From the NCBI RefSeq assembly GCF_001524445.2, contig NZ_CP013418.1, positions 2,542,001 to 2,606,000 of the forward strand: DNA of 64,000 nt. Reading direction: 5' to 3'. The DNA is from Burkholderia savannae. GTDB taxonomy: Bacteria; Pseudomonadota; Gammaproteobacteria; Burkholderiales; Burkholderiaceae. The notes under the pieces are model-generated. The model was not told where the DNA came from, did no database searches, and worked only from the letters and a program-made list of their open reading frames with translations. Shown here one piece after another: positions 16,657 through 64,000 of this stretch; positions within the stretch are counted from its first letter, which is position 1, and each line of letters begins with the position of its first letter. Made by a program: the position numbers and the translations under genes.

Positions 16657-17313
16657 TTACCCCTGCGGCGACGGCAGCAGTTCGGCCACCTTGTCGCGCA
16701 ACGCGGGCAGCACTTGCGCGTCGAACCACGAATGCTGCTTGAGCCAGCCCTGATTGCGCGGCGACGGGTGCGGCAGCGGAATGAATTCGGGCGCGTACTC
16801 GGCCCACGCTCGCACCGTTTCGGTCAACGAAGATTTGCGGCGTGTGCCGAGGAAGCGGCGCTGCGCGTATTGACCGATCAATAGCGTCAGCCGGACGTCG
16901 GGCAGTTCGCGCAGCAGCTTGTCGAGCCAAAGCGGCGCGCATTCCGGCCGTGGCGGGTTGTCGCCGCTCGCGCCGCGTCCCGGATAGCAGAACCCCATCG
17001 GCACGATCGCGAACAGCGATTCGTCGTAGAACGTCGCATCGTCCACGTTCAGCCATGCTCTCAACCGCTTGCCGCTCGCATCGTCCCATGGAATGCCGGA
17101 CGCATGGACGCGCGCGCCGGGCGCCTGCCCGACGATCAGGATGCGCGCATGCGGATGTGCGCGCACGACCGGCCGCGGACCGCAAGGAAGGTGGGGCGCG
17201 CAGACGGTGCATGCGCGGATCTCGCGAAGGAGGGCGTCGAGGGACGCATGTCGCGCGGGCATCGAGCGCGAGCCCTTGCGGATCGGCGGCGGGTCGTTTG
17301 GTTTCGGTGACAT
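16657..17313 (-). CDS. uracil-DNA glycosylase superfamily protein
   Basis: A 218-residue cytoplasmic protein. Motif 1 of the UDG fold is seen as ILIVGQAPGARVHASG followed by IPWDDASGKRLRAWL, and the HPSPRNQGW element near residue 180 is the second catalytic-loop motif. The N-terminal cysteines in RACTVCAPHLPC recall the Fe-S ligands of family 4 enzymes but are not complete. This uncharacterised group is common in proteobacteria and may act on damaged bases or have lost catalysis. A second in-frame ATG at 17262 (MPARHAS) is also possible. It is monocistronic and convergent with the S15 gene. Confidence 0.82.
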   Translation of the reverse strand: MSPKPNDPPPIRKGSRSMPARHASLDALLREIRACTVCAPHLPCGPRPVVRAHPHARILIVGQAPGARVHASGIPWDDASGKRLRAWLNVDDATFYDESLFAIVPMGFCYPGRGASGDNPPRPECAPLWLDKLLRELPDVRLTLLIGQYAQRRFLGTRRKSSLTETVRAWAEYAPEFIPLPHPSPRNQGWLKQHSWFDAQVLPALRDKVAELLPSPQG

Positions 17314-17611: not shown

Positions 17612-18364
17612 ATGAGCACTGCATCCGCCGCCGGCATCGCGCCGGCCGAATGGAAAATCCGCTGCGACCTGGCGGCCTGCTATCGTCTCGTCGCGATGCA
17701 CGGATGGGACGATCTGATCTTCACGCACATCTCGGCGCGCCTGCCCGGCCCCGATCATCATTTCCTGATCAACCCGTACGGAATGATGTTCGAAGAGATC
17801 ACCGCGTCGTCGCTCGTGAAGGTCGATCAGGCCGGCAACAAAGTCGATGATTCGCCGTATCCGGTCAATCGCGCGGGCTTCGTGATTCACAGCGCGGTGC
17901 ACGCCGCGCGCGAAGACGTGCAGTGCGTGCTGCACACGCATACGCGCGCGGGCGTCGCGGTCAGCGCGCAGCGCGGCGGCGTGCTGCCGATCTCGCAGCA
18001 ATCTACGTTCGTGCTGCCGTCGCTCGCGTATCACGCTTACGAAGGCGTCGCGCTGAAAGACGACGAGAAGCCTCGTCTGCAGGCCGACCTCGGGCGCGCG
18101 ACGTACCTGATGCTGCGCAATCATGGCTTGCTGACGGTCGGCCCGTCGATCGCGGACGCATTTCTCGCGATGTATCTGTTCGAGACGGCGTGCCAGATCC
18201 AGATCGCCGCGCAAAGCGGCGGCGAACTGATCGCGATACCGCCCGAGATCGTCGCGACGAGCGCCGAGGCAGCGTCCGTGCAGACGGGCGGCCTCGGCGG
18301 CGCGTTCGTGTGGCCTGCGCTGATCCGCAAGCTAGACCGCCGCGACGACAGTTACCAGACTTGA
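17612..18364 (+). CDS. class II aldolase/adducin family protein
   Basis: A 250-residue cytosolic enzyme of the L-fuculose-phosphate aldolase-like fold. The zinc ligands are seen in LHTHTRAGVA and in MLRNHGLLTVG; the N-terminal WDDLIFTHISARLPG motif is typical. The ATG at 17612 follows AGAGGA. Members act as sugar-phosphate aldolases or decarboxylases; this adducin-like subgroup is mostly uncharacterised, so I give no substrate. It is monocistronic and faces the end of the DNase II cluster across a GC-rich hairpin. Confidence 0.85.
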   Translation: MSTASAAGIAPAEWKIRCDLAACYRLVAMHGWDDLIFTHISARLPGPDHHFLINPYGMMFEEITASSLVKVDQAGNKVDDSPYPVNRAGFVIHSAVHAAREDVQCVLHTHTRAGVAVSAQRGGVLPISQQSTFVLPSLAYHAYEGVALKDDEKPRLQADLGRATYLMLRNHGLLTVGPSIADAFLAMYLFETACQIQIAAQSGGELIAIPPEIVATSAEAASVQTGGLGGAFVWPALIRKLDRRDDSYQT

Positions 18365-18447
18365 CGGCGAGCGATCACGTGCCGCTTGCGAGCGCGTGCA
18401 TTCACGAGCCGGGCATGCATCGCGTTCGCGATGTCGAATACAAAGGA

Positions 18448-18470
18448 GCGGCGCGCGTGGTGCGCGCCGC
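18448..18470. terminator. GC-rich hairpin between convergent genes
   Basis: A nine-base stem, GCGGCGCGC / GCGCGCCGC, has loop GTGGT. On the minus strand it is followed by a weak TCCTTTGT tract. It is a candidate terminator for the seven-gene minus-strand cluster or for the aldolase. Confidence 0.45.
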
Positions 18471-18496
18471 CCAACGCCGGTCGTCGTGCCGACAGC

Positions 18497-19651
18497 TCAC
18501 GACGCCTGCTTGCCATTCGTGTTGACGAACCTCGGGCCATAGAACACGGGTTTCGACAGATCGGTGTAGGTGCGCAAGTAGCCGATCTCGTCGGGATACA
18601 GCTCGCCGAGTTGCGCGAGGGCCGCGGCCGGCACCTGATGGCGCATGATGTTGAAGCATGACAGCACGCGCAGGTCGACCATTCCGTGCACGGCTGCGCC
18701 GAGCGTTTTCCACGACGTGGCCGACGGGCCGTTCCATACCGCGTCGAGTGTCGTCAGGATCGTCGAGAAGCTGGTGTCGAACGCGTTCAGATCATTCTCC
18801 ACCGCGCCGCGGTCGGGATCGAGCGCGAGGATGTCGGCGTAGCCGTCGCGCGGCACGGCGAGCGTGTTGATCACGACGGGCGCGGTGATCGCGGGGCCGC
18901 AGAAGAAGAGCGGCTCGTTCTTCGGATTGAAGTCGACAGGCGGCGACGGCGCTTCGTAGCGCGCGCCGTAGTAGAGCTCGGCGAAGCGCGCGTAGTGCGA
19001 TTCTTCGTTTTCGAACGGATTGCCGGCGAACACGTCGCCCCGGCTGGAACCTTCGCCTTGCCGAAGGATTTCGTCGATGCCTGCATAGAACGATTCGACG
19101 GGATCGACGCCGGGCGTATACGTGACCGTCGTGAAGCCGATATCGTCGCCGACCTGGTTGGACGGGCCGCCCGCCTGCACCGCCGCGCGCACCGCGTCCG
19201 CGTTGCGCTCGACCGCGTCGCGGATGCTCTCGTAGAACGCGGCGATCGTCGGATAGCTTTCGTCGCGGCCCAACTGGCGCAGCAGGAACGCGGGCGTCTC
19301 GATGCGCAGGAAGTTTTTGAGTTGCGGCTTCGAATAGCGCGCGAGGCCGACGTGCAGATCCGGCTCCGCGCCGCCCGGCAGTCCCGCCGTCGGATAGGCG
19401 ATCCGGATCGTCGCGAATTGCGGCGAGCCGCCTAAAGCCGCGAGCAGATTCGACGCGATCGCCATGTGTACCATCTCTTCCATCGCGACACTGCGGATTG
19501 CGTTGTACGCGGTGTAATTCTGGACTTCCAACGAAAACATCGCGGACAGGTACAGAGGCAGCGTCGAGTATTCGAGCTCGATCGCGGTCTGCAGCGCGCG
19601 CTTGATCCACGCGAGGTCGCGCGCGGCGGGCGGTACGGTGTTCGGGTTCAT
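18497..19651 (-). CDS. ferritin-like protein of the VioB/RebD C-terminal type
   Basis: A 384-residue protein. Residues 1-230 match the ferritin-like fold (PF12902) also found in the iminophenyl-pyruvate dimer synthases VioB, RebD and StaD. Helix 1 has ELEYSTLPLYLSAM and helix 2 has the EExxH di-metal motif in AMEEMVHMAIASNLL. The C-terminal half (LFFCGPAITAPVVINTLAVP onward) is conserved in the stand-alone proteins of this family. VioB-type enzymes couple two imine molecules during bisindole synthesis; there is no tryptophan-oxidase gene here, so the stand-alone protein probably has another redox or metal-dependent job. It is the last gene of the cluster, 18 nt after the propeller-like gene. 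No signal peptide. Confidence 0.8.
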   Translation of the reverse strand: MNPNTVPPAARDLAWIKRALQTAIELEYSTLPLYLSAMFSLEVQNYTAYNAIRSVAMEEMVHMAIASNLLAALGGSPQFATIRIAYPTAGLPGGAEPDLHVGLARYSKPQLKNFLRIETPAFLLRQLGRDESYPTIAAFYESIRDAVERNADAVRAAVQAGGPSNQVGDDIGFTTVTYTPGVDPVESFYAGIDEILRQGEGSSRGDVFAGNPFENEESHYARFAELYYGARYEAPSPPVDFNPKNEPLFFCGPAITAPVVINTLAVPRDGYADILALDPDRGAVENDLNAFDTSFSTILTTLDAVWNGPSATSWKTLGAAVHGMVDLRVLSCFNIMRHQVPAAALAQLGELYPDEIGYLRTYTDLSKPVFYGPRFVNTNGKQAS

Positions 19652-19669
19652 CGCATGTTCCTCGCCAAG

Positions 19670-20608
19670 TCAGCCTTGATAGAAAAGCGCATACGACGTG
19701 CCGCCGACGCGATACGGCACGACGTGGGACGCGCCCGCGGCTGTCGTGGCGGCGCCGATGCGCGTCCAGCCGAGACAGTCCGCGTGAATCCGGTAGACGG
19801 CCGTCGCGCCGTCGCCGGCGATGTACGTGACGAGCGTCGGTGCGCCGTGCGCCCAAGGCACGCACGCCGCATTCGTGATCTTCAGCGCGTCCGGCAGTTG
19901 GTTCTGCAGATAACTGCCGACTTCGACGGTGCCGAGCGCCGGATTGTCCTGAATGTGATCGATGTTGACGTTGAGCTTCGCGGTGTTGATCTTGAAGAAG
20001 AAGTTCGCGCCGCCCAGCTGAAAGAACGAGAACTGCGTCCAGCCTTTTGCCCATTCGTGATACCAGACGTTCAGCGCGAGGAGGGGCGGCGTGCCGCCCG
20101 TCGACGCGGGCGTGACGGCGACGCTGAAATTCGCGACGCGTCCCGTGTTGAAGTCGTAGCCGAGGATGTATTGCTGGCCGAGCGACGTGAACGGCGCGAC
20201 GTTCGTGAAGCCGCGCGTCGGCGTGTTGCGCGGCAGTGCGAACTTGTACGGCGGCGATGCGCTCAGGTCGGCTGCGATCGCGAAGAAGCCGAACGTGCCG
20301 TCGTCCGCGCGATACGTGAGCAGGTACGGCACGTTTCCGAGCACGAACGACGCGACGCTGTCCCACGGGCCGCCCGCAAGATCGATCCTCGAATCGGCAG
20401 GAGCGATCCACGGCGGCGCATCGCTGAGCGTGTAGACATCGGTCTTCTGCGTGGCCTTGTTGTAGGCGATCAGATCGAGCTTGCCGGCGTGCGGTAGCGC
20501 GACGAAGCTCGTGTAGCCGCGCGCGAGCGGGCCGTCGCCGTCCCACACGCGTTCCAGCATGATTTTTTCGGAGCCCGAATCAGGGCGAATCGAGTAGAGG
20601 CTGCTCAT
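19670..20608 (-). CDS. beta-propeller-like protein of unknown function (312 aa)
   Basis: No family recognised with confidence. The ATG at 20608 has an excellent AAAGGAG site. The whole length is beta-rich and periodic, with repeated segments ending in short Tyr- and Phe-rich strands (YTSFVALPHAGKLDLIAY, SVASFVLGNVPYLLTY, TSLGQQYILGYDF, GGTSYALFYQG) at about 45-50 residue spacing, as expected for a six- or seven-bladed beta-propeller or lectin. It has no signal peptide and only two cysteines. Such proteins often bind a partner or a sugar. It lies between the metallophosphoesterase and ferritin-like genes, 18 nt from the latter. Confidence 0.7.
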   Translation of the reverse strand: MSSLYSIRPDSGSEKIMLERVWDGDGPLARGYTSFVALPHAGKLDLIAYNKATQKTDVYTLSDAPPWIAPADSRIDLAGGPWDSVASFVLGNVPYLLTYRADDGTFGFFAIAADLSASPPYKFALPRNTPTRGFTNVAPFTSLGQQYILGYDFNTGRVANFSVAVTPASTGGTPPLLALNVWYHEWAKGWTQFSFFQLGGANFFFKINTAKLNVNIDHIQDNPALGTVEVGSYLQNQLPDALKITNAACVPWAHGAPTLVTYIAGDGATAVYRIHADCLGWTRIGAATTAAGASHVVPYRVGGTSYALFYQG

Positions 20609-20683
20609 GTACGCTCCTTTGCGATAGAACGGTCGAACGGTTGCTCGGCCAGACGGGAACGGCGTCCCGGCAGCGCCGGCGAA

Positions 20684-22306
20684 TCATGAGATCGGTTCGA
20701 CGAACAGCGGCAGCGGCGTCGGGTCCGCCCCCGCGATCTGGAAATAGCTGAGCCGAGCGGGCTTGCCCGCGCCGGCGAGCTCGAGAATCTGGAAGCCGCG
20801 GTTGTACCAGTCGTCGGTCAGGTCGAGCTGCAGGTCCGCTTGCTTCAGCGGAACCGGGTACTTTTGCGCGTAAGGCGCTTCGCTCGCCTGCACGGGTATC
20901 GCGCTGTGCCCCGCGCAGCGGCCTTTCGGCAGCGTCTTGAAGATGTGCGCCGCGTCGTCGCCTTCGGTCGGCCAGTCTGCCGGACGGTATGCATCCGCGA
21001 AGATGCCGAGGTTGTGCTCGTGGCCCCAGATCCACGCGGCCACGCGATCGCCGAACGTCGGACCGAATTGCCGCCATAGTCCCGTGTTCACCCATTCGCG
21101 ATTGAAATCGGATGAATCGGGCGTCCCGGACGCTTCGCGACGTTGCGCGATTCCGCACACGTCCAGCGCCGAATACAGCTGATGATGCGACAGCAGGATC
21201 GAGCGGCCGGAGAAGTTCGTCAGCTTGTCGAGATGCCAGACGGCTTCGTCGGTGCGAACGGTCACCTGATCGACGGGCGACGTGGTGTCGCGAGGCGGCT
21301 GATCGGCGAGCGACGCGAGGCGGAAGTACGGATTCCTGTCGGTGGGCCAGTGCGGGCTTGCGCCGGCGGCCGCCGTCTCGATCTTGCCGATGTGCAGCCG
21401 CTCGAGCGTCGCTTGCTGCGCCGATGCCGCGACGTTCATGTAGTGCCCGTGGTAGCCCGTGTCGAGGCCGAGGAATTGCCAGCCGTCGTCCTCGGTGCGC
21501 AGGCAGAAATAGCTTGCCTGCTGCCGTTGCGCGGGGCCGTCGACGAGTTCGCCGGAATCGAGCGCGTGCAGGAACGATACGGCGCCCGTGAAGTATTCGT
21601 GATTGCCCGGCACCGTGAAGAACGGCACGCGTCGTTTGTCGCTGCGCAGCACGTCGCGCACGAGGCCGATCAACCGGTGCTCGGTTTCGAAGCGCGTGCC
21701 GGAGAAATAGACGTCGCCGAGATGCAGGATTGCATCCGGCGAGAACTTCAGCGCGGCGACGAGCACGGCTGCCGCGACGTCGGTGCCGGTGCCGATGTCG
21801 CCGACGATCGCGATTCGCGCGCGCGCCGGCAGCTTCCATTCGATCACGCCGTAGCGCAGGTCGCCCTTGCCGGCGTCGGCGGCCTGCCACGAGCGGTACT
21901 GCGGTTCGCTGCCTTTGTGATACGGATATTGCCAGTAGTACTTGAAATACTGGACGTACATCTGCTGCCATAGCGGATTGCCGAATTTGTACTGCTGCGT
22001 CTGATGCTCGACGTCGCGCTCGATCTGCGCATCGCCGGCGATGTTCGCGTGCGCGCGGCGATGATGCAGATACGACAGATAGGTTTGCACCGCCTCTTCG
22101 TCGTTGCTGTCGGCGGGAGGCGGATCGAGCGGCCGGTTTTCGAGCATCGCGCGGCAGTAGCGGTCGGTCGCGCGCATCAGCGGATGATCGGCGTCGATGC
22201 CGGCTGACGCGCGATGCTCGAGACGGAGCGCATGCGCGAGCACTTCGGCGACGCACGACTTCCACAGCGCCAGATGCGGAACCTCGAAATGTTCGATCGG
22301 GACCAT
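20684..22306 (-). CDS. calcineurin-like metallophosphoesterase (540 aa)
   Basis: Residues about 160-450 form a metallophosphoesterase domain with all five metal-site motifs: GDIGTG (Asp170), LGDVYF (Asp198), GNHE (Asn235, His236), LSHHQLYSA and WGHEHN. The family uses two metal ions to cleave phosphomonoesters or phosphodiesters. The first 150 residues are helical and specific to this protein; the last 90 are beta-rich. No signal peptide. The start codon directly abuts the stop of the upstream paralogue gene, a sign of translational coupling. DNase II leaves 3'-phosphate ends, so one idea is that this enzyme removes or turns over such phosphates; that is inference only. Confidence 0.85.
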   Translation of the reverse strand: MVPIEHFEVPHLALWKSCVAEVLAHALRLEHRASAGIDADHPLMRATDRYCRAMLENRPLDPPPADSNDEEAVQTYLSYLHHRRAHANIAGDAQIERDVEHQTQQYKFGNPLWQQMYVQYFKYYWQYPYHKGSEPQYRSWQAADAGKGDLRYGVIEWKLPARARIAIVGDIGTGTDVAAAVLVAALKFSPDAILHLGDVYFSGTRFETEHRLIGLVRDVLRSDKRRVPFFTVPGNHEYFTGAVSFLHALDSGELVDGPAQRQQASYFCLRTEDDGWQFLGLDTGYHGHYMNVAASAQQATLERLHIGKIETAAAGASPHWPTDRNPYFRLASLADQPPRDTTSPVDQVTVRTDEAVWHLDKLTNFSGRSILLSHHQLYSALDVCGIAQRREASGTPDSSDFNREWVNTGLWRQFGPTFGDRVAAWIWGHEHNLGIFADAYRPADWPTEGDDAAHIFKTLPKGRCAGHSAIPVQASEAPYAQKYPVPLKQADLQLDLTDDWYNRGFQILELAGAGKPARLSYFQIAGADPTPLPLFVEPIS

Positions 22307-23110
22307 TCATGCCTCCGGCGCGCGCGGCGCCGCGCGGGACGTGCGCGGCCGAGGGAATTGCAGATTGATGCACGTGTCGCGCGTGAGATCGAGGCCCGGC
22401 CAGTCGTCCCACAAGCCGGCCGGCAATGCGAGCGGGCGCGGCGCCATCCGCAGCACGGGCGTCGTCAGCGCCGCAAGCCGATCGAGCTCCGGACACGGAC
22501 GCGGATGTGGAGACGCGCTGTGTATCCATGCGGCGACGTAGTCGTCGCCGCAGCACACGAGCGCGCCGTCGACGCCGTCCGGCGGCTCGGCCTGAAAGGA
22601 AGTGGCCCACACCTGCACGGCCGCGAGTAAATCGGTTGGCCGCGTATTCGCGCGACGCGCGCCGACGAAATGCTTCGCGCTGCCGAACATCCAGTCAGCG
22701 GGCCGATCGATGAGGAAGTAGGGCTGCTCGGCGACGAGCGCATCGGCATGCGGATCGATCGCGACGGGCACTTCGGGCAGCTTGCTGCGCGTCATGTCGT
22801 AGGCGTCGCCGTGCAGGTTCTGATAGATGCGCGCCGCGATCGCCTTCGTCGCGCGATCGTGCGACGAAGGCGTCGCCCAGAACATCAGCGCGGTCTGGTC
22901 CGGAACGGCGGGCGGCTTGCCGGCTTGCGGAATCATCGTCGGCAGATACGCGCGCAGGCCGACGGGCGGCTGCAGCAGCACGCAGGCCGGTACGAACACG
23001 CTGCCGAGAAACTGCGCGAAATGCTCGTAGTCGAGCGCGGGCGACCGGAAGCCGCGCCACACGTAGACGGCGTTCGGCGCGACCGGGAAGGATTCCTGCG
23101 GCGTGTTCAT
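22307..23110 (-). CDS. cluster protein of unknown family, paralogue B (267 aa)
   Basis: Not recognised. It is a clear paralogue of the gene just upstream: both start with a short tail then VWRGFRxPxL, followed by FLGSVFVPACV/KLGTVFVPATV, GLRAYLPT/GLRAYAPT, a FWATP/FWASP strand, DRPADWMFGSAKHFV/DEPADWMHGAIRHLV and a C-terminal LPAGLWDDWPGLD/LPIGLWDEWAGMD. The conserved tryptophans, Asp-Trp pairs and an internal DYVAAW/DYVVYW strand suggest a compact enzyme or binding fold. It overlaps the upstream paralogue by four bases and abuts the metallophosphoesterase gene. No signal peptide. A role within the DNase II cluster is inferred from coupling only. Confidence 0.7.
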   Translation of the reverse strand: MNTPQESFPVAPNAVYVWRGFRSPALDYEHFAQFLGSVFVPACVLLQPPVGLRAYLPTMIPQAGKPPAVPDQTALMFWATPSSHDRATKAIAARIYQNLHGDAYDMTRSKLPEVPVAIDPHADALVAEQPYFLIDRPADWMFGSAKHFVGARRANTRPTDLLAAVQVWATSFQAEPPDGVDGALVCCGDDYVAAWIHSASPHPRPCPELDRLAALTTPVLRMAPRPLALPAGLWDDWPGLDLTRDTCINLQFPRPRTSRAAPRAPEA

Positions 23111-23889
23111 CGGTTGCCCTCACGTTCGAATTGCATGTTGAAGCTGCTTCCCGCGCGCACGTCCATGCCGGCCCATTCGTCCCAGAGCCCGATCGGCAGG
23201 AATGTGGGCGCGGGCGCGAAGGTTTCCTTCCAGTCGGTCAGCACGGCCTGCAGGCGCGGCACGCCGGTCGGTGCCTGTGCCGAGCCGGCCGCGACGGGGC
23301 CGAGCTCCCAGTAGACGACGTAGTCGTTGCCCGTGCACGCGAGCGCGCCGGCAAGCGGTACGTTCTTCTGAATATCGGCGAGCGCTTTGGCGACGGCCGA
23401 GCGGAACGACACGGCGTCGACGGTGGACGGCCGCGCCGCGACGAGATGGCGGATCGCGCCGTGCATCCAGTCGGCGGGCTCGTCGTACAGATAGACGGGC
23501 TGGTCGACGGCGAGCGTGCCGTCGAAACGGACCGGAAAATCGGCGCGGCTCTGGTTGTCCTGCGTCAGATAAACGCCGTTGTGCGTCAGCGTGTACGTGC
23601 GCACCGCGAGCCGCGTGAAGCCGTTCCAGTACGTCGCGGGCGATGCCCAGAACAGGATCGCGGTTTCATCCGGCACCGACGCGGGCTTGCCGGGCAGGCC
23701 CGCCGGCACCGTCGGCGCGTACGCGCGCAGGCCCGCGTCGATCTGCATCTTCACGGTGGCCGGCACGAATACGGTGCCGAGCTTGCTCATGAATTGATCG
23801 AGGCCGAGCGACGGCAACCGGAAGCCTCGCCATACCCGCACCGAATCGGGGGCGACGCGCATGTCTTGCGGCAAATCGGGCGTGTTCAT
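23107..23889 (-). CDS. cluster protein of unknown family, paralogue A (260 aa)
   Basis: Not recognised; tandem duplicate of the downstream gene, with which it shares the motifs VWRGFR, VFVPA, GLRAY, PADWM and GLWDEW in the same order. The ATG at 23889 overlaps the TGA of the 980-residue fusion gene (ATGA). The frame is open far upstream, but that is the antiparallel shadow of the fusion gene and must not be read as an N-terminal extension. The two copies have diverged strongly outside the motifs, which points to an old duplication and possibly a heterodimer. No signal peptide or membrane segment. Confidence 0.7.
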   Translation of the reverse strand: MNTPDLPQDMRVAPDSVRVWRGFRLPSLGLDQFMSKLGTVFVPATVKMQIDAGLRAYAPTVPAGLPGKPASVPDETAILFWASPATYWNGFTRLAVRTYTLTHNGVYLTQDNQSRADFPVRFDGTLAVDQPVYLYDEPADWMHGAIRHLVAARPSTVDAVSFRSAVAKALADIQKNVPLAGALACTGNDYVVYWELGPVAAGSAQAPTGVPRLQAVLTDWKETFAPAPTFLPIGLWDEWAGMDVRAGSSFNMQFEREGNR

Positions 23890-26828
23890 TGCATGGCTCC
23901 GGTTGGGGCGGCCGGCGCGCCGGCTTCGGCGCTCGCGGGCGCGGCGGCCGGCAAGGCGGGCTTGCCGGTGGCGACGAGGTGTTGCGCGACTTTGGCGAGA
24001 AATCCGGCGGGCGGCGGAGACTCGCGTGTCTTGTCGTAGCGGCATTCGTTCGGGAACTGCCAGTGGCGATTCACGCAGAACCGGCAGGAACCTTCGGTGC
24101 GCGACAGATAGCCGCCGCCGTCGGCGTCGTGCCACGTGAGCGCGCGTTGCGCGTAGAGCTCGTCGAGCACCGACGCCATCGCCGCGTGCGCGTCGACGAA
24201 ATAGGCGCAGAGCGTGCGATACGCGTCGGGGAACTGGCTCGCGAGCCACGCGCGCGCCGCGTTCGCTGCATCGGCGTCGGCGGGCAGTTGGATCGCGACG
24301 TAATCGTACGGATATTCCTGCGTCGGCAGCACGAGCGTGAAGCCGTTCTGCGGCGTGAGCGCCGCGGCGCATTGCGGTTGCGTCGCGCTGAACGCCTGCC
24401 ATTCGCCGGCGCTCATCCGGTATTGCTGCAGGAAGAAGCTGTTGTACGAGAAGTGCGGCGTGATGACGAGGCGTGTGCGGCTGAAGTAGCGCGTGCCGTC
24501 GATCGTCACGTCGAATTCGACATAGGCCGGGTGCGCGGGGTCGCTGGTTTCCTTCAGCAGCGTGTAATCCTTGTCGGCGGGATGCGTCGACAGCGGCGGA
24601 TTGCGCCGCACGTGCGCGCCGAACGCCGCATGGAACATGTTCCAGCTCGATTGGCTGACGATGTAGAGCACGGCGGGCCGCGTCTGCACCATCTGCTTGA
24701 TCGCCCATGCGTTGCGGCTCACGCAGTTGTCGACGATGTTCGCGACGCTGGCGTCGCTGCCGCCGAGAAATCCCGGTTTCCAATGTGGAGACGCGCACGC
24801 GACCATGTCGAGTTGGCACACGTCCTCGCCGACGCGCAGCGAGGCGGCCGGGTGGCCGTCGCCGTGCAGCGTGCGCTCGAATTTTTCGAGCACGGGCACG
24901 AACTGCAGGTAGTAGCTTTGCGGCTGCTGCAACACCTCGATCTGGATGCCTTCCGGCACCGATACGCGGGCGGCGAGCACGTCGCCCGCGGCGAAGCGGT
25001 TGTGCGGCTTGTAAGTATCGAAGAGGAGTACGTAGGGGAAATCGCCCGGCTGGCCGGGGATCGCGACCTTCGTGTCGGCGGCGTCGCCATCGTAGCGCAC
25101 CGTGATCGACCACGCGGGACTGTCGTCGACGCGCGCCGCGCCCGTTACCTCGCCGCCGCGCGGCGCGATCACGCGCCCTTCCGGCAGCATGAAGCGCCGC
25201 ACGAAATCGAGATCGAGCTTCTCCTGATAGACGGTGCGATAACGGTAGTACCACGCGTATTTGGCCCACGCATCGGTGTCGCCGTCGGAAGAGAAATCCG
25301 GATAGCACCACGCGGCGCCCGTCTGGCCCGGCAGGAAGGCGGTCAGATTCGGATTGATGCCGATCGTCATGATGGGCGCCTTGCGGCAGCCGTCGATCAC
25401 TTCGCCGTTCGGAAACGCCGGCGGACGCGTGCGGCCGTTGATCCAGCGCGCCGCGCCGCTCTTGCCGTTCGCGCTCGCCGGATAGGGCACGGTGACGTCG
25501 AAATCGAATGCCGTGTACGGGCCGTACGCGCGCTTCTTCAGGTCGGCGGGCCAGAAGAACGAGCATGTGCCGCACGAGCGCACCTGGAAGGCGAGCTGCA
25601 CCTCGAGCGGGTCCTCTTCGTCGACGGGCTTGTAGTCGCGGCTCGGGTTGTAGGTCGCGCTGCCTTCGCCGGCTATCGTCGCCCACGTCGCGAGCGCGCC
25701 GTTGTAGCTCGTTTGCAGTCCGAACGTCGAGTAGATGAGACCGGACCAGTCGGCGCGCACGGCGTCGGAGATCGGCGTGCCCCGGTCGGTGCGTCGCCGG
25801 ACGATCGGGTCCGAAATGTTGCGCACGCACACGAATCGCACGCCGAGCCGGTTCGCCTGCTGGGCGATGATCGCATCGTCCATTTCGAGGCATGAGTATG
25901 CGCGCGCATCGTTGCCTTCCGCGATGTAGTAGAAGTCCGTCGTCAGGAGCGGCGCATCCTTCAACGGCCGAATTGCTGGCGCGTTCAGACATTCCGGCCG
26001 GATCGCGTCGTTGACGAGATCCGACAGCGTAAGCTCGCCGAGGCCGGGATCGTCGGGGTGGCGAGCCTTCAGCTCGTCGAAGAGCGCGGCGAGCGACTGC
26101 GGCGTCACGACCTCGTTCATCCTGAACAGCAACGTGCGCTCGACTTCGCCGACGAGCGCGGTCGACGGATACCAGGTCGGGCAGCGATACATGTTGCCGC
26201 CATCGGGGCTCGTCGTGTTCTGCGGGCGTTGCAGCTCGAGCAGCGCGGCGTTCGCGACGACCGTGTCGCCGAGGCGCTGATCGCGGCGCGCGCCGCCCGC
26301 GGTGCCGATCGTGTAGATGCGGTCGGGGCGAGCATCTTCGACGATGCATCGGATCATCGCGGACAAGCCGTCGAGCCAGGGAGAATGCGCGAGATGCGCA
26401 TTCGACTTGAACAGCAGCACGTTCCATGGGCGCCCGGAGCGATCGACGACTCGCACCATCTGAAAGAGCCCCCAGAGCGTGCCCGATTTCGAGTCCGCCG
26501 CATACGACGATGCCCCTCGCGTATACGGAAGCCATGCCTGCTTCCACGCGTAGTCGTTGTAATCGCCGGTGCGGTCGCTGTTGACGAACACGTGGTCGAG
26601 CGCGAACCACTCGGCGCTCGTCCACGTGATCACGACGATGTCGGCGCGCGGCAGCGGATCATCGGGGGCGCGCGTGCCGGGTGCGGTGCGCACGGGCTTG
26701 GTTTGGCCGATCGTGTCCCATGCGACGGGCGGCAGCGTCGTCGTGCCGCGCAGCGGCGCGGCGGCGGAGATGTCGGTGTGGCGCGTGACGAGCGGCAAGA
26801 GCGCGCTTTCGGGTAGTTGCGCATTCAT
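23886..26828 (-). CDS. 980-aa fusion: nucleoside-phosphorylase-like domain plus divergent UDG-like region
   Basis: Residues about 62-375 resemble the PNP/MTA-SAH nucleosidase superfamily: ADIVVITWTSAEW opens the Rossmann-like core, TIGTAGG (173-179) is the substrate loop, Glu315 in SCLEMDDA and Asp340 in VRNISDPI match the ribose-binding Glu and catalytic Asp. Residues about 415-800 follow the order of an Fe-S family uracil-DNA glycosylase: C419-x2-C422 and C481, then IGINPN (489-494) in the place of motif 1, CQLDMVAC (671-678), C702 before a helix and RPAVLYIVSQSSW, and TPHFS (790-794) in the place of the HPS motif. A beta-rich insert fills 560-660. The tail has C915-x2-C918 and C929, perhaps a zinc site. 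No signal peptide. The PNP call is firm; the UDG-like call is my inference from motif order. Confidence 0.75.
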   Translation of the reverse strand: MNAQLPESALLPLVTRHTDISAAAPLRGTTTLPPVAWDTIGQTKPVRTAPGTRAPDDPLPRADIVVITWTSAEWFALDHVFVNSDRTGDYNDYAWKQAWLPYTRGASSYAADSKSGTLWGLFQMVRVVDRSGRPWNVLLFKSNAHLAHSPWLDGLSAMIRCIVEDARPDRIYTIGTAGGARRDQRLGDTVVANAALLELQRPQNTTSPDGGNMYRCPTWYPSTALVGEVERTLLFRMNEVVTPQSLAALFDELKARHPDDPGLGELTLSDLVNDAIRPECLNAPAIRPLKDAPLLTTDFYYIAEGNDARAYSCLEMDDAIIAQQANRLGVRFVCVRNISDPIVRRRTDRGTPISDAVRADWSGLIYSTFGLQTSYNGALATWATIAGEGSATYNPSRDYKPVDEEDPLEVQLAFQVRSCGTCSFFWPADLKKRAYGPYTAFDFDVTVPYPASANGKSGAARWINGRTRPPAFPNGEVIDGCRKAPIMTIGINPNLTAFLPGQTGAAWCYPDFSSDGDTDAWAKYAWYYRYRTVYQEKLDLDFVRRFMLPEGRVIAPRGGEVTGAARVDDSPAWSITVRYDGDAADTKVAIPGQPGDFPYVLLFDTYKPHNRFAAGDVLAARVSVPEGIQIEVLQQPQSYYLQFVPVLEKFERTLHGDGHPAASLRVGEDVCQLDMVACASPHWKPGFLGGSDASVANIVDNCVSRNAWAIKQMVQTRPAVLYIVSQSSWNMFHAAFGAHVRRNPPLSTHPADKDYTLLKETSDPAHPAYVEFDVTIDGTRYFSRTRLVITPHFSYNSFFLQQYRMSAGEWQAFSATQPQCAAALTPQNGFTLVLPTQEYPYDYVAIQLPADADAANAARAWLASQFPDAYRTLCAYFVDAHAAMASVLDELYAQRALTWHDADGGGYLSRTEGSCRFCVNRHWQFPNECRYDKTRESPPPAGFLAKVAQHLVATGKPALPAAAPASAEAGAPAAPTGAMQ

Positions 26829-26894
26829 GGCAAGGCTCCAGGGCGATGTGGGGACGCGTGAGCGTCGACGTTTTGTTATGCGAAGGATGCTGCG

Positions 26895-27947
26895 CTATTC
26901 GGCCGATTCATGCGTTTTGCGGATCAGCTCGCGTGCCTGCGCTTCTGTCTTGCCGGGCGGCGGCACGATCAGATCGGTTTCGGACAGCGCTTTCCATAGC
27001 TTCGGATCTTGGAATGCGATCGTGCCGCCGCCGCGTTTTTCCTGCGACACCATTCGGTTGATGTCGCCGACGCACACCCAGTTGTCGGTCGTCGTGATGC
27101 CCCATTTCGCGTGGTCCTGCGTTTCGGGCCATGCCCACGGCGCGCCGAGCTTGCGCAGATCGATGAATTTGATGTCGTAAGTCTTGTGGATGCCGTCGGA
27201 ATCGAGGACGGGCGGGATCTCGCCTCGAATCCACGTCTCCACGTACATGTCGGCCTTCAGCGTCGGGCCGACGAGGTCGTTCCAGAAATCCTTGTTCCAC
27301 TTGCGGTTCTTCGCGATCACCTTGAACGGCACGCCGCCGCGGGTCTTGAAATCGAGCGCGTCGGAATCCGCGGGCGCGGACGCGGTGAGCGGCTGCGTCA
27401 GCGCATACAGCGGGCTCGAGCGATCGAGTCCGCCGGTGCGTGGCAGATAGACCTGCGGCTGCTGATGCAGCGCCATCTGCGCGGCGATCTTGCCCGCCGT
27501 CGCGAGATCGAGGCTCACGCACAGGAAGGTCTGTCCATACAGCGGCGTCGGCACGCCCGGTTCCGACGGGCTGGCATATTTCGGCCACGAATGCAGCAGC
27601 CACAATGCGGAGTTCGACGCGACATCGAATGCGATGACGCCCTTCGTATGGCCGAGCGTCGCGTTGTTCGAGCGATCGGCGTCAGCGGGCATTTCGTCGT
27701 TGTAGAGTATCCAGCCCGTCGTGCCGCCCGGATCGCCGAAGATCGCATCGAGCGTGTAGAACAGCGCGCCCTTCGAGTCTTTCATCAGATTCGGCGATTT
27801 TTGCACCGCGCCGACTTGACGATCGTAGTAGACATATTCGTAGCCGGTCGCGCTTTCGCTCTCGGCATCCTTGACCAGCTTCGGAACTTTGTAGGCGAAC
27901 CATAGATCGACGGATCGATTCAGTTCGTCGCGCGGCGAGATAGCCAT
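26895..27947 (-). CDS. deoxyribonuclease II family protein
   Basis: A 350-residue homologue of animal lysosomal DNase II (PF03265), an acid endonuclease that needs no metal and leaves 3'-phosphates. The two HxK catalytic elements of the PLD-like pseudodimer are present: H100-T-K102 in NATLGHTKGVIAFD and H279-A-K281 in QDHAKWG. The C-terminal stretch WVCVGDINRMVSQEKRGGG is the family signature. I start at the ATG at 27947, the first codon giving a family-like N-terminus (VDLWFAYKVPK); a longer frame reaches 28043. Unlike animal enzymes there is no signal peptide, so it is cytosolic or exported by an unconventional route. It is the first gene of the seven-gene cluster. To my recollection a B. 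thailandensis DNase II has been crystallised, so the enzyme itself may be known. Confidence 0.9.
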   Translation of the reverse strand: MAISPRDELNRSVDLWFAYKVPKLVKDAESESATGYEYVYYDRQVGAVQKSPNLMKDSKGALFYTLDAIFGDPGGTTGWILYNDEMPADADRSNNATLGHTKGVIAFDVASNSALWLLHSWPKYASPSEPGVPTPLYGQTFLCVSLDLATAGKIAAQMALHQQPQVYLPRTGGLDRSSPLYALTQPLTASAPADSDALDFKTRGGVPFKVIAKNRKWNKDFWNDLVGPTLKADMYVETWIRGEIPPVLDSDGIHKTYDIKFIDLRKLGAPWAWPETQDHAKWGITTTDNWVCVGDINRMVSQEKRGGGTIAFQDPKLWKALSETDLIVPPPGKTEAQARELIRKTHESAE

Positions 27948-28790
27948 CTGATGTCCCCGGTTGCTGAATGGCGCCGCATGCGCGGCGAACGACGCCCGTT
28001 CGTGCGAGGCGTCTATATCTTGTCGTCGAAGGCTTGCCTGCACCGGTTGCGTGGCACTCGCAGCCGGCAGACTATCGCTTTGCGCGGGCGCGCGAACAGA
28101 CCTTCGCGGGCAACGGGCGAATGTGCGTTGCGCGCATGCGCCGCCGAACCCAGGCGTGCGTGCGCGCGACGGCGCCCGTCGGCTCGCTCTGCGAACCGTC
28201 GGCGTCGACGATCAATGAGTAGGAATGCGAATAGGCTAGTGGACGAATCGACTGGTGCGCATAGAGGTCCCCTCCGTTTATTGCTATCCGTTGTCTTTGC
28301 GCCCGAACCCGTTCGTTGGCGACCGAAGCGGCACGGCTTCGGAAGTTGCGGGTTCTTGTGGTCTTAGCATAGAACACTCCGACGAAAACGGTAAGCCAAT
28401 TCCGGACGCGTTGCGATTACGGATCGGCGCGGGGTTTGTCGTGCGGGATGGGGATTGCGGTGGAGGGAGGTCCGATCGGAGGCTCGATCGGCTGAAGCGC
28501 GGGAAAGGCGCTTCGCGTTGCGTAACCGGCCGGATGGCGACGTCGATACGAGACAACAGCGTTCGCGCAAGCGTCACGCGTTCTGAGTTAAGCATTTCAC
28601 GCGCTCGAGCGCGGCGATCGCGGCTCGAGCGGGCGATTGCGCGGAAACACGGCTGTCATGCGCCGATACGTTTGACCGCGGGTTTGGGTCACGGCGGTCG
28701 CGACGGCACTGCATGCATTCGTCGAATCGGGCAACGCGGCGATTCGGCGACGCCGTCGTCAACGACGATGTGATTCGTTTCACTTTCGCG
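27948..28790. other. intergenic region upstream of the DNase II cluster
   Basis: About 840 bases without a supported gene; the frames present are short and Arg/Ala-rich. It must carry the promoter of the seven-gene cluster. I could not assign a promoter or operator. Confidence 0.5.
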
Positions 28791-62876: not shown

Positions 62877-62925
62877 GCGTGGGCGGCGCTTGCGCATCGC
62901 GCGCACGGCGCCCGACACTGATCGG

Positions 62926-63086
62926 CGGCAAGCGGCAAGCGGCAAGCGGCAAGCGGCAAGCGGCAAGCGGCAAGCGGCAAGCGGCAAGCGGCAAGCGGCA
63001 AGCGGCAAGCGGCCAACGGCCAACGGCCAACGGCCAACGGCCAACGGCCAACGGCCAACGGCCAACGGCCAACGGCCAACGGCCAA
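62926..63086. repeat. heptamer tandem array, 12 x CGGCAAG then 11 x CGGCCAA
   Basis: Twenty-three perfect heptamers, 161 bp, in two homogeneous blocks that differ by two positions. It lies between the BON gene and the kinase gene. Confidence 0.95.
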
Positions 63087-63231
63087 CGGCGGCGGACCTG
63101 CTCCGCAGCAGAAGGTTCGACGCCGGACCGAACACGCGCAACGCGGCGCGCGCCGCCGCGTTCGATCACCCCGTTTCCTTTCCGTTGCGGACCCTTTTGT
63201 CACAACCACCACGATCATCCCGACCGCCACG

Positions 63232-64000
63232 ATGCCCGAAATCGTCACCATCACGCCGAACCCCGCCGTCGACGTCGCGACGTCCGTCGATCGCATCACC
63301 GACACCCGCAAGTTGCGCTGCGCGCCGGCGCGGCGCGATCCGGGCGGCGGCGGGATCAACGTCGCGCGCGTGCTCACGCGCCTCGGCGCCGATTGCTCGG
63401 CGCTCTATCTCGCGGGCGGCGATACCGGTCGCGCGCTGCGCGGCCTGCTCGCCGACGAAGGGGTGCGCGCGAGCTGCATCGACGTCGCCGGCGAGACGCG
63501 AGAAAACTTTTCGGTGCTCGAAACATCGACGGGGCGCGAATTCCGCTTCGTGCTGCCGGGCCCGGCGCTCGCGCCCGACGAATGGCCGCGCTGCGTCGAC
63601 GCGCTCGCGCGGCTCGCCGACGCGTCGCGCTATCTGGTGATGAGCGGCAGCTTGCCGCCCGGAATGCCCGACGATTGCTACGGCCGGCTCGCGCGGCTCG
63701 CGAACGCGCGCGGCGTGCGCACGGTCGTCGATACGTCGGGGCTGGCGCTCGCGGCCGCGCTCGATGCGGGCGTCTATCTGGTGAAGCCGAGCCTGGGCGA
63801 GCTGCGCGCGCTGACCGACCTGCCGCTCGACGACGACGCCGCGCGCCTCGCGGCCGCGCGCGCGATCGTCGGCAGCGGGCGCGCGCAGATCGTCGCGCTG
63901 ACGCTCGGCGACGCCGGCGCGCTCGTCGTGTCGCGCGACGATGCGGTGCGGCTGCCGGGCGTGAAGGTCGCGGTGCGCAGTGCGATCGGCGCGGGCGACA
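63232..64000 (+). CDS. PfkB-family kinase (1-phosphofructokinase/6-phosphofructokinase II), partial
   Basis: Runs off the right edge; 256 codons visible. The start MPEIVTITPNPAVDVATSVD is typical of PfkB-family phosphofructokinases, followed by the substrate motif GGGGINVARVLTRLG and MSGSLPPGMPDDCYG. The last visible residues are IGAGD, the catalytic Asp motif, so about 60 residues are missing. It phosphorylates fructose 6-phosphate or fructose 1-phosphate, or tagatose 6-phosphate. Its neighbour, a BON protein behind an FNR-like box, suggests a role in low-oxygen glycolysis. Confidence 0.88.
   Translation, partial: MPEIVTITPNPAVDVATSVDRITDTRKLRCAPARRDPGGGGINVARVLTRLGADCSALYLAGGDTGRALRGLLADEGVRASCIDVAGETRENFSVLETSTGREFRFVLPGPALAPDEWPRCVDALARLADASRYLVMSGSLPPGMPDDCYGRLARLANARGVRTVVDTSGLALAAALDAGVYLVKPSLGELRALTDLPLDDDAARLAAARAIVGSGRAQIVALTLGDAGALVVSRDDAVRLPGVKVAVRSAIGAGD

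Follow-up and report, generated by a model that had tools for sequence, protein, structure and literature searches.

A seven-gene block relocating as a unit in Burkholderia joins a leaderless DNase II to a nucleosidase fusion with a probable uracil-DNA glycosylase-like half

Bacterial DNase II is represented in the PDB by entries 5i3e and 5unb, reportedly the Burkholderia thailandensis enzyme and said to have appeared in Nucleic Acids Research (NAR) in 2017; we take the 5i3e protein to be an acid-active, metal-free nuclease. Animal DNase II enzymes carry a secretion leader. Here we analyze a 64-kb stretch of Burkholderia savannae (contig NZ_CP013418.1, positions 2,542,001 to 2,606,000; hereafter the window), in which a DNase II gene stands in a row of seven genes. 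Its product aligns with 5i3e over the full 350 residues (E=4e-228, ~91% identity as counted from the printed alignment), also matches 5unb, and shares both HxK motifs; with a solved bacterial structure in existence, the nuclease itself is not new. What differs is its company: the 5i3e and 5unb protein is known as a single enzyme, and it is not known to have been linked to the other six genes or to be co-inherited with them. No single known kind of system fits the module, and its recognizable parts belong to known superfamilies. We read this putative operon, moved as a unit, as a candidate cytosolic, export-less set for nucleic-acid demolition, most likely serving conflict and kept latent by the acid requirement of DNase II, a reading to which we assign a probability of about 0.4.

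The seven open reading frames were confirmed, all on the minus strand at 18497-27947 of the window, and the description of a one-strand cluster with small gaps and overlaps given by an earlier reading of this DNA made without database searches (hereafter the sequence-only reading) holds: from the DNase II end, the junctions are 66, -4, -4, 0, 75, and 18 bp. The window belongs to a 7.43-Mb, three-contig assembly (G000), and we searched 65 genomes of the genus. DNase II occurs in 4 of these (its own, G017, G052, and, as a fragment, G049) and the paralogue family described below in 3. The complete block, with its order kept, is present in the window genome, G017, G052, and plasmid pBPJTT of Burkholderia pyrrocinia LWK2; protein identities to the window block are 88-94% in G017, 73-80% in G052, and 72-81% in LWK2. 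The window genome and G017 have common flanks. Paralogue cross-matches aside, blastn of 40 kb of G052 against the window returned the block only (Table 1), LWK2 (33 kb) and G052 (20 kb) likewise match each other over the block only, and none of 23 genes flanking the block in LWK2 has a match in the window. Because similarity to G052 and LWK2 is confined to the block and the LWK2 flanks are unmatched, the block occupies three unrelated sites. The sequence-only reading had named, as what would overturn it, a failure to find the seven genes together elsewhere; they stand together in these four genomes. Pairwise ratios of nonsynonymous to synonymous substitution (dN/dS) are 0.11-0.34 for each of the seven genes, which indicates purifying selection, and the block has a GC content of 65.8% vs 65.5% in the 10 kb to each side. 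The seven genes behave as one unit, relocating together, beyond chance. That they are unrelated passengers traveling together by accident is a very improbable and already disfavored view: several block families do occur elsewhere without the rest, but gene order and seven reading frames are kept at three sites under the selection just described, and some of the same families re-associate in distant genomes.

Table 1. Positions of the block, its genes and domains, and related features at other loci (L, locus handle; positions without a handle are those of the window)
Feature	Position	Strand	Evidence or remark
Conserved relocating block	18514..27998	-	Limits from blastn of 40 kb of G052 against the window
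DNase II, 350 aa	26895..27947	-	Pfam PF03265 E=2.7e-77
980-aa fusion: nucleosidase/phosphorylase domain + probable UDG-superfamily domain	23886..26828	-	PF01048 E=1.3e-7; halves match separate adjacent genes in L049, L116
PNP/MTA-nucleosidase-like N-terminal domain, residues 1-394	25647..26828	-	EM[DG]DA and R-N-x-S-D motifs
UDG-like C-terminal domain, residues 395-980	23889..25646	-	Motifs in alignment A6, hhalign
Paralogue A, 260 aa	23107..23889	-	No family match
Paralogue B, 267 aa	22307..23110	-	42% identical to paralogue A
Calcineurin-like phosphoesterase, 540 aa	20684..22306	-	PF00149 Metallophos E=3.9e-11
Propeller-like protein, 312 aa	19670..20608	-	No family match
Ferritin-like protein, 384 aa	18497..19651	-	Pfam PF12902 E=2.1e-46
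Terminator-like hairpin	18446..18472	-	Directly 3' of ferritin-like gene; 11 pairs, 10 G-C
D-99 block remnant at R-body locus	L027:10001-10331		DNase II reduced to its first ~90 codons, adjoining the last ~17 of the ferritin-like gene
Bacteroidota DNase II cluster	L006:3822-13647, similar in L007-L012		Xanthine-dehydrogenase-like, 476-aa lipoprotein-like family, DNase II, PF04185 phosphoesterase, XdhC-type in five

In Burkholderia sp. D-99 the LWK2 locus is kept on both sides and the block is reduced to its two ends (Table 1), and ~620 bp of LWK2 sequence just beyond it are absent as well; loss of the block is the simplest reading. A like DNase II fragment lies near RebB in G049. The mobile unit gives defined partners, plus a strain that appears to have lost them, to the question of why bacteria keep a leaderless, animal-type acid nuclease. 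A scan of 18300-28400 found no sigma-70-like promoter, and the hairpin in Table 1 is its sole minus-strand terminator-like site; with both strands counted, 5 such sites were found vs 7.6 expected in shuffles, which makes the hairpin weak evidence.

The seven proteins were scanned against Pfam, NCBIfam, and PADLOC, and the two paralogues and the propeller-like protein also against PHROGs. The DNase II assignment of the sequence-only reading is borne out by a score of 260.6 bits against a cut-off of 23 and by both catalytic motifs, H100-x-K102 and H279-x-K281, which are kept in 25 of 26 aligned DNase II sequences (the exception, L017, ends short of the motifs). The absence of a signal peptide also looks right: the block protein begins, as judged by eye, at the mature N-terminus, and so does the conserved sequence in 25 other DNase II loci, some of which have in-frame codons upstream.

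The fusion protein was called PNP plus UDG-like, UDG standing for uracil-DNA glycosylase, and the first part of this label is secure. Its PF01048 (PNP_UDP_1) match spans residues 163-344 (31.8 bits vs a cut-off of 25.1), the nucleosidase profile A7 retrieves MTA/SAH nucleosidases from the PDB (best E=9.4e-8), and Glu315 and Asp340 are invariant in 5 sequences. The half thus shares the catalytic Glu and Asp motifs of the MTA/SAH nucleosidase-PNP superfamily and differs from it by large extra segments and a partner domain. For the second part of the label the window protein has no Pfam match; a distant homologue, motifs, and profile comparison make it probable. Iron-sulfur (Fe-S) UDGs carry four cluster Cys, a motif-A Asn, and a motif-B His. 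The C-terminal half has GINPN (490-494), Cys 419/422/678/702, and a PH motif (His 792); a long insert separates motif A from the third Cys, and further Cys stand at 915/918/929. In alignment A6 of 4 distant sequences, GINPN, the four Cys ordered as in Fe-S UDGs, the PH motif, and the three extra Cys are all common (an earlier alignment, A4, had the second Cys out of register), and the Cys are conserved in the 4 Burkholderia copies. Comparison by hhalign of this 4-sequence profile with a UDG profile (udg1; 19 sequences from loci found with PF03167, with membership by blastp grouping only) gave a score of 32.0 and E=0.0015 for the one comparison, and 0 of 100 column shuffles scored as high (best 29.1); a second set of reading frames collected at those loci, udg0, acted as an unplanned negative control, and there the score was reached by 98 of 100 shuffles. 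Profiles built from the Burkholderia copies alone gave weak results, the score being reached by 3, 3, 5, and 3 of 60 shuffles in the respective variants, and a PDB profile search with the UDG-like alignment returned matches at chance level only. These likenesses to type IV/V Fe-S UDGs (PF03167) are set against a Pfam score under the cut-off, a 17% hhalign probability, the insert, the extra C-terminal Cys, and the nucleosidase fusion; a distant kinship with UDGs is probable, short of proof, and the half may act on bases in nucleic acid. A structure predicted from one sequence was discarded as unusable, with a predicted local distance difference test score (pLDDT) of 32.5, and the 980-aa protein found no match among viral contigs. 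Apart from the block, an ordinary UDG-family gene lies 1.2 kb off at 16657-17313 of the window (minus strand; PF03167 E=5.5e-24) and is no member of it.

Azospirillum argentinense p5 (L049) and G762 (L116), a genome of another class, each carry the two halves of the fusion as neighboring genes. For the nucleosidase-like gene of Azospirillum, Pfam gives no match, and the name comes from 49% identity to the G762 gene and a weaker match to the window protein; the G762 genes are themselves named by similarity to those of Azospirillum. Parallel clusters surround the pair: at L116:4369-13576, a propeller homologue (39%, other strand), HAD, a gluconate-dehydrogenase-like subunit, GMC, nucleosidase, UDG-like, and S8-like; at L049:3004-13385, HAD, a gluconate-dehydrogenase-like subunit, GMC, GDPD, nucleosidase, UDG-like fused to a PF01979 amidohydrolase, and S8. 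We know of no name for the HAD-GMC-nucleosidase-UDG-like-S8 set. It resembles the block in the PNP and UDG-like pair and, in G762, the propeller homologue; it differs in that the G762 stretch has no match to the block DNase II, paralogues, phosphoesterase, or ferritin-like protein, and none is so annotated in the Azospirillum stretch. A stretch of ~4 kb at a contig end of G707 (L109) holds a gene with the UDG-like half only, one for a GDPD-type protein (PF03009 score 20.4 bits, cut-off 23.6), and an opposite-strand paralogue relative; G365 (L042) has a nucleosidase-only gene (PF01048). The UDG-like, nucleosidase, propeller, and paralogue families thus occur near one another in distant proteobacteria. 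Both the UDG-like and the paralogue family are rare. Among 398 Pseudomonadota genomes the UDG-like profile found 3, namely G762 and the two already represented in its query (the window's own and G707), and among 190 in the class of G762 it found 1, G762 itself; the paralogue profile matched 4 of 398, own included. The full 980-aa query, run on 369 genomes of the window's class, matched G365 and the own genome only. What this brings out is a recurring PNP and UDG-like pair, and a paralogue family that in one distant genome lies close to the UDG-like gene; neither is known to match a named system. At L048:9447-11424 the window genome encodes another nucleosidase-like protein, of 362 aa and with 32% identity to its Azospirillum counterpart, beside a 284-aa protein.

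The main rival, nutrient scavenging, would have DNase II act on imported or released DNA in acidic niches and turn it into bases, phosphate, and sugar as food; we regard it as less likely than the conflict reading, though a serious alternative and ahead of the others. Nuclease, phosphatase, nucleosidase, and glycosylase would form a plausible chain, the UDG-like half in Azospirillum forms one protein with a deaminase-type amidohydrolase, and DNase II of Bacteroidota (L005-L012) keeps different company from the block's six. Across the 26 other DNase II loci, with genes clustered by blastp, a phosphoesterase gene directly follows DNase II in 8, a xanthine-dehydrogenase-like gene lies two genes upstream in 7 (L006-L012, Flavobacteriaceae/Saprospiraceae), a 476-aa family is nearby in the same count of 7, and an XdhC-type gene follows the phosphoesterase in 5. 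These families were assigned from scans of the L006 members only, and the dehydrogenase, XdhC, and Azospirillum deaminase matches fall under NCBIfam cut-offs. Scavenging also fits poorly with a block in whose seven proteins the Pfam scan recognized no transporter, permease, or regulator, with a missing export signal in a near-neutral bacterial cytosol, with a DNA-base glycosylase as a means of feeding, and with a rare, relocating distribution. The 476-aa family also adjoins the nucleosidase-only gene of G365.

The calcineurin-like phosphoesterase assignment is sound (Table 1). In the PDB, at E values up to 1, it matched six proteins, each of them a purple or tartrate-resistant acid phosphatase and each only weakly similar (E 0.028-0.23). 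Purple acid phosphatases carry the motifs GDxG, GDxxY, GNH, H, and GHxH. Five metal motifs are recognizable in the block protein, which departs from that set at the metal-binding Tyr: the four block copies read GDVYF vs GDIYY or GDVYY in ten relatives. Nine non-Burkholderia plasmid records matched the protein, and in 7 of the 7 inspected, TIR genes and caspase or CHAT genes lie close to the relative (the seven include two Ti plasmids that share one gene row, and in three the match covered under one third of the query). A row of TIR, caspase and/or CHAT, and metallophosphoesterase genes (L050, L051, L123-L127) recurs on plasmids of Methylobacterium, Bradyrhizobium, Rhodopseudomonas, Agrobacterium, and Rhizobium. 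The block is like these alphaproteobacterial loci in a homologous phosphoesterase (22-33% identity) and unlike them in the place of that protein outside their branch and in its gene content, no TIR, caspase, or CHAT member being found among the seven proteins in the Pfam scan, in which flanking genes were not included. Such kinship, movement as a unit, and the common use of nucleosidase and nuclease folds as effectors would suit phage defense, in which an abortive-infection operon destroys DNA and nucleosides upon infection. We hold this decidedly improbable, since the block has no recognized sensor-like gene (TIR, NTPase, or cyclase) and no PADLOC match, and DNase II with its acid optimum would idle in the neutral cytosol of an infected cell.

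Of the remaining proteins, the two paralogues are 42% identical and of unknown family, as the sequence-only reading had it: neither they nor the propeller-like protein found a match in the four databases at the limits used. The propeller-like gene is present, and its label goes by appearance, with no family match and no match in the PDB. Distant relatives of paralogue A occur in G707, G714, and G118; in the last two, no match to the other six block proteins was found beside them in the available stretch. A paralogue structure prediction from two sequences was discarded (pLDDT 31.1). In G118, a 1.5-Mb genome, the relative (L111:9539-10303) has an apparent signal peptide, by eye.

The last protein had been called VioB-type and ferritin-like; the ferritin-like domain (PF12902) stands, and the VioB part does not, the score against TIGR04492 being 29.2 with an equivalog cut-off of 1250. 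PF12902 relatives occur in 166 non-Burkholderia plasmid records. In the 3 regions inspected, the relative has as neighbors a LodA/GoxA oxidase and a tryptophan halogenase in Azospirillum p3, a tyrosinase in Acaryochloris, and a short gene annotated as GMC in Bradyrhizobium. Together with the GMC and gluconate-dehydrogenase subunit genes near the PNP/UDG-like pair and a tyrosinase gene upstream of the block in B. pyrrocinia, these neighbors are what could be expected if the module made a modified nucleoside or an oxidized small molecule, with the ferritin-like enzyme as a VioB-type oxidase. This, too, is distinctly unlikely, for no assembly enzymes, ligases, carriers, or transporter are recognized in the block, and DNase II would have no obvious place in such a pathway.

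We return to the proposed latent demolition set. The chemistry common to the module would be the breakage of phosphodiester, phosphomonoester, and N-glycosidic bonds. DNase II would be a metal-free cutter of DNA at acid pH that generates 3'-phosphate ends. The fusion would break N-glycosidic bonds, those of nucleosides with its nucleosidase half and those of bases within nucleic acid with its Fe-S UDG-like half, and the acid-phosphatase-like enzyme would strip phosphates. Binding or positioning would fall to the propeller and the paralogue pair, and redox or metal handling to the ferritin-like protein. The set would be silent in a neutral cytosol, so that, on this proposal, no immunity gene is needed, and would be activated by acidification or lysis of the cell; its target would be a competitor, a phage, or a cell that grazes on or engulfs the carrier. 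A latent set released by acid or lysis appears likeliest because no leader, transporter, regulator, or sensor was recognized and the 5i3e enzyme is an acid nuclease. Consistent with it are the catalytic motifs kept in DNase II, both fusion halves, and the phosphoesterase, as well as four-genome synteny, purifying selection, the two block ends left in D-99, the PNP and UDG-like pair recurring in distant genomes, sporadic occurrence, and TIR/caspase-linked phosphoesterase relatives.

Several observations weigh against this proposal. None of the seven proteins matches a PADLOC anti-phage model at E<=0.1; this result and the prior existence of 5i3e and 5unb also count against the sequence-only reading, which is supported in part. 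DNase II also occurs alone, without block partners, in Bacteroidota and others, and 24 of the 26 other DNase II loci have none of the six partners (at E 1e-4, with some contigs short), the two exceptions being L005, with a ferritin-like gene ~5 kb off, and the D-99 remnant (L027). The UDG-like half of the window protein matches PF03167 neither in the Pfam scan nor when its own genome is searched with that family; its G707 homologue reaches E=0.0068 and 16.9 bits, under the cut-off of 24.3, and the hhalign probability quoted above is low. In a 14-sequence tree, the block phosphoesterases are the outgroup to the TIR/caspase-linked relatives and not nested among them, and four chromosomal relatives inspected (of 8 non-own genomes matched) have, by eye, no TIR or caspase neighbors. 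No delivery route is visible. Finally, RebB occurs in 33 of 65 Burkholderia genomes, including all 4 DNase II carriers vs 29 of 61 others, which is no significant excess (Fisher p=0.11); because of this value, and because RebB lies on a contig separate from the block in the window genome, G017, and G052, the R-body link is confined to one lineage (LWK2, with the D-99 remnant).

In that lineage, the block lies between the tyrosinase gene and a RebB operon whose genes are 1.6 kb off, a likeness to R-body (Reb) loci from which the three genomes just named differ. R-bodies are pH-sprung. The proposed demolition set might accordingly be cast as a poison pill, which we consider a slim prospect: relocating, acid-active enzymes would be stored in the neutral cytosol and released when a protist or phagocyte engulfs and acidifies the cell, low pH would replace an immunity protein, and in some lineages an adjacent R-body would burst the cell open.

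Elsewhere in the window, at 62890-64000 on the plus strand, an open reading frame starts with short peptide repeats (RQAASGK, then RPTANGQ), probably reflecting a tandem repeat in the DNA.

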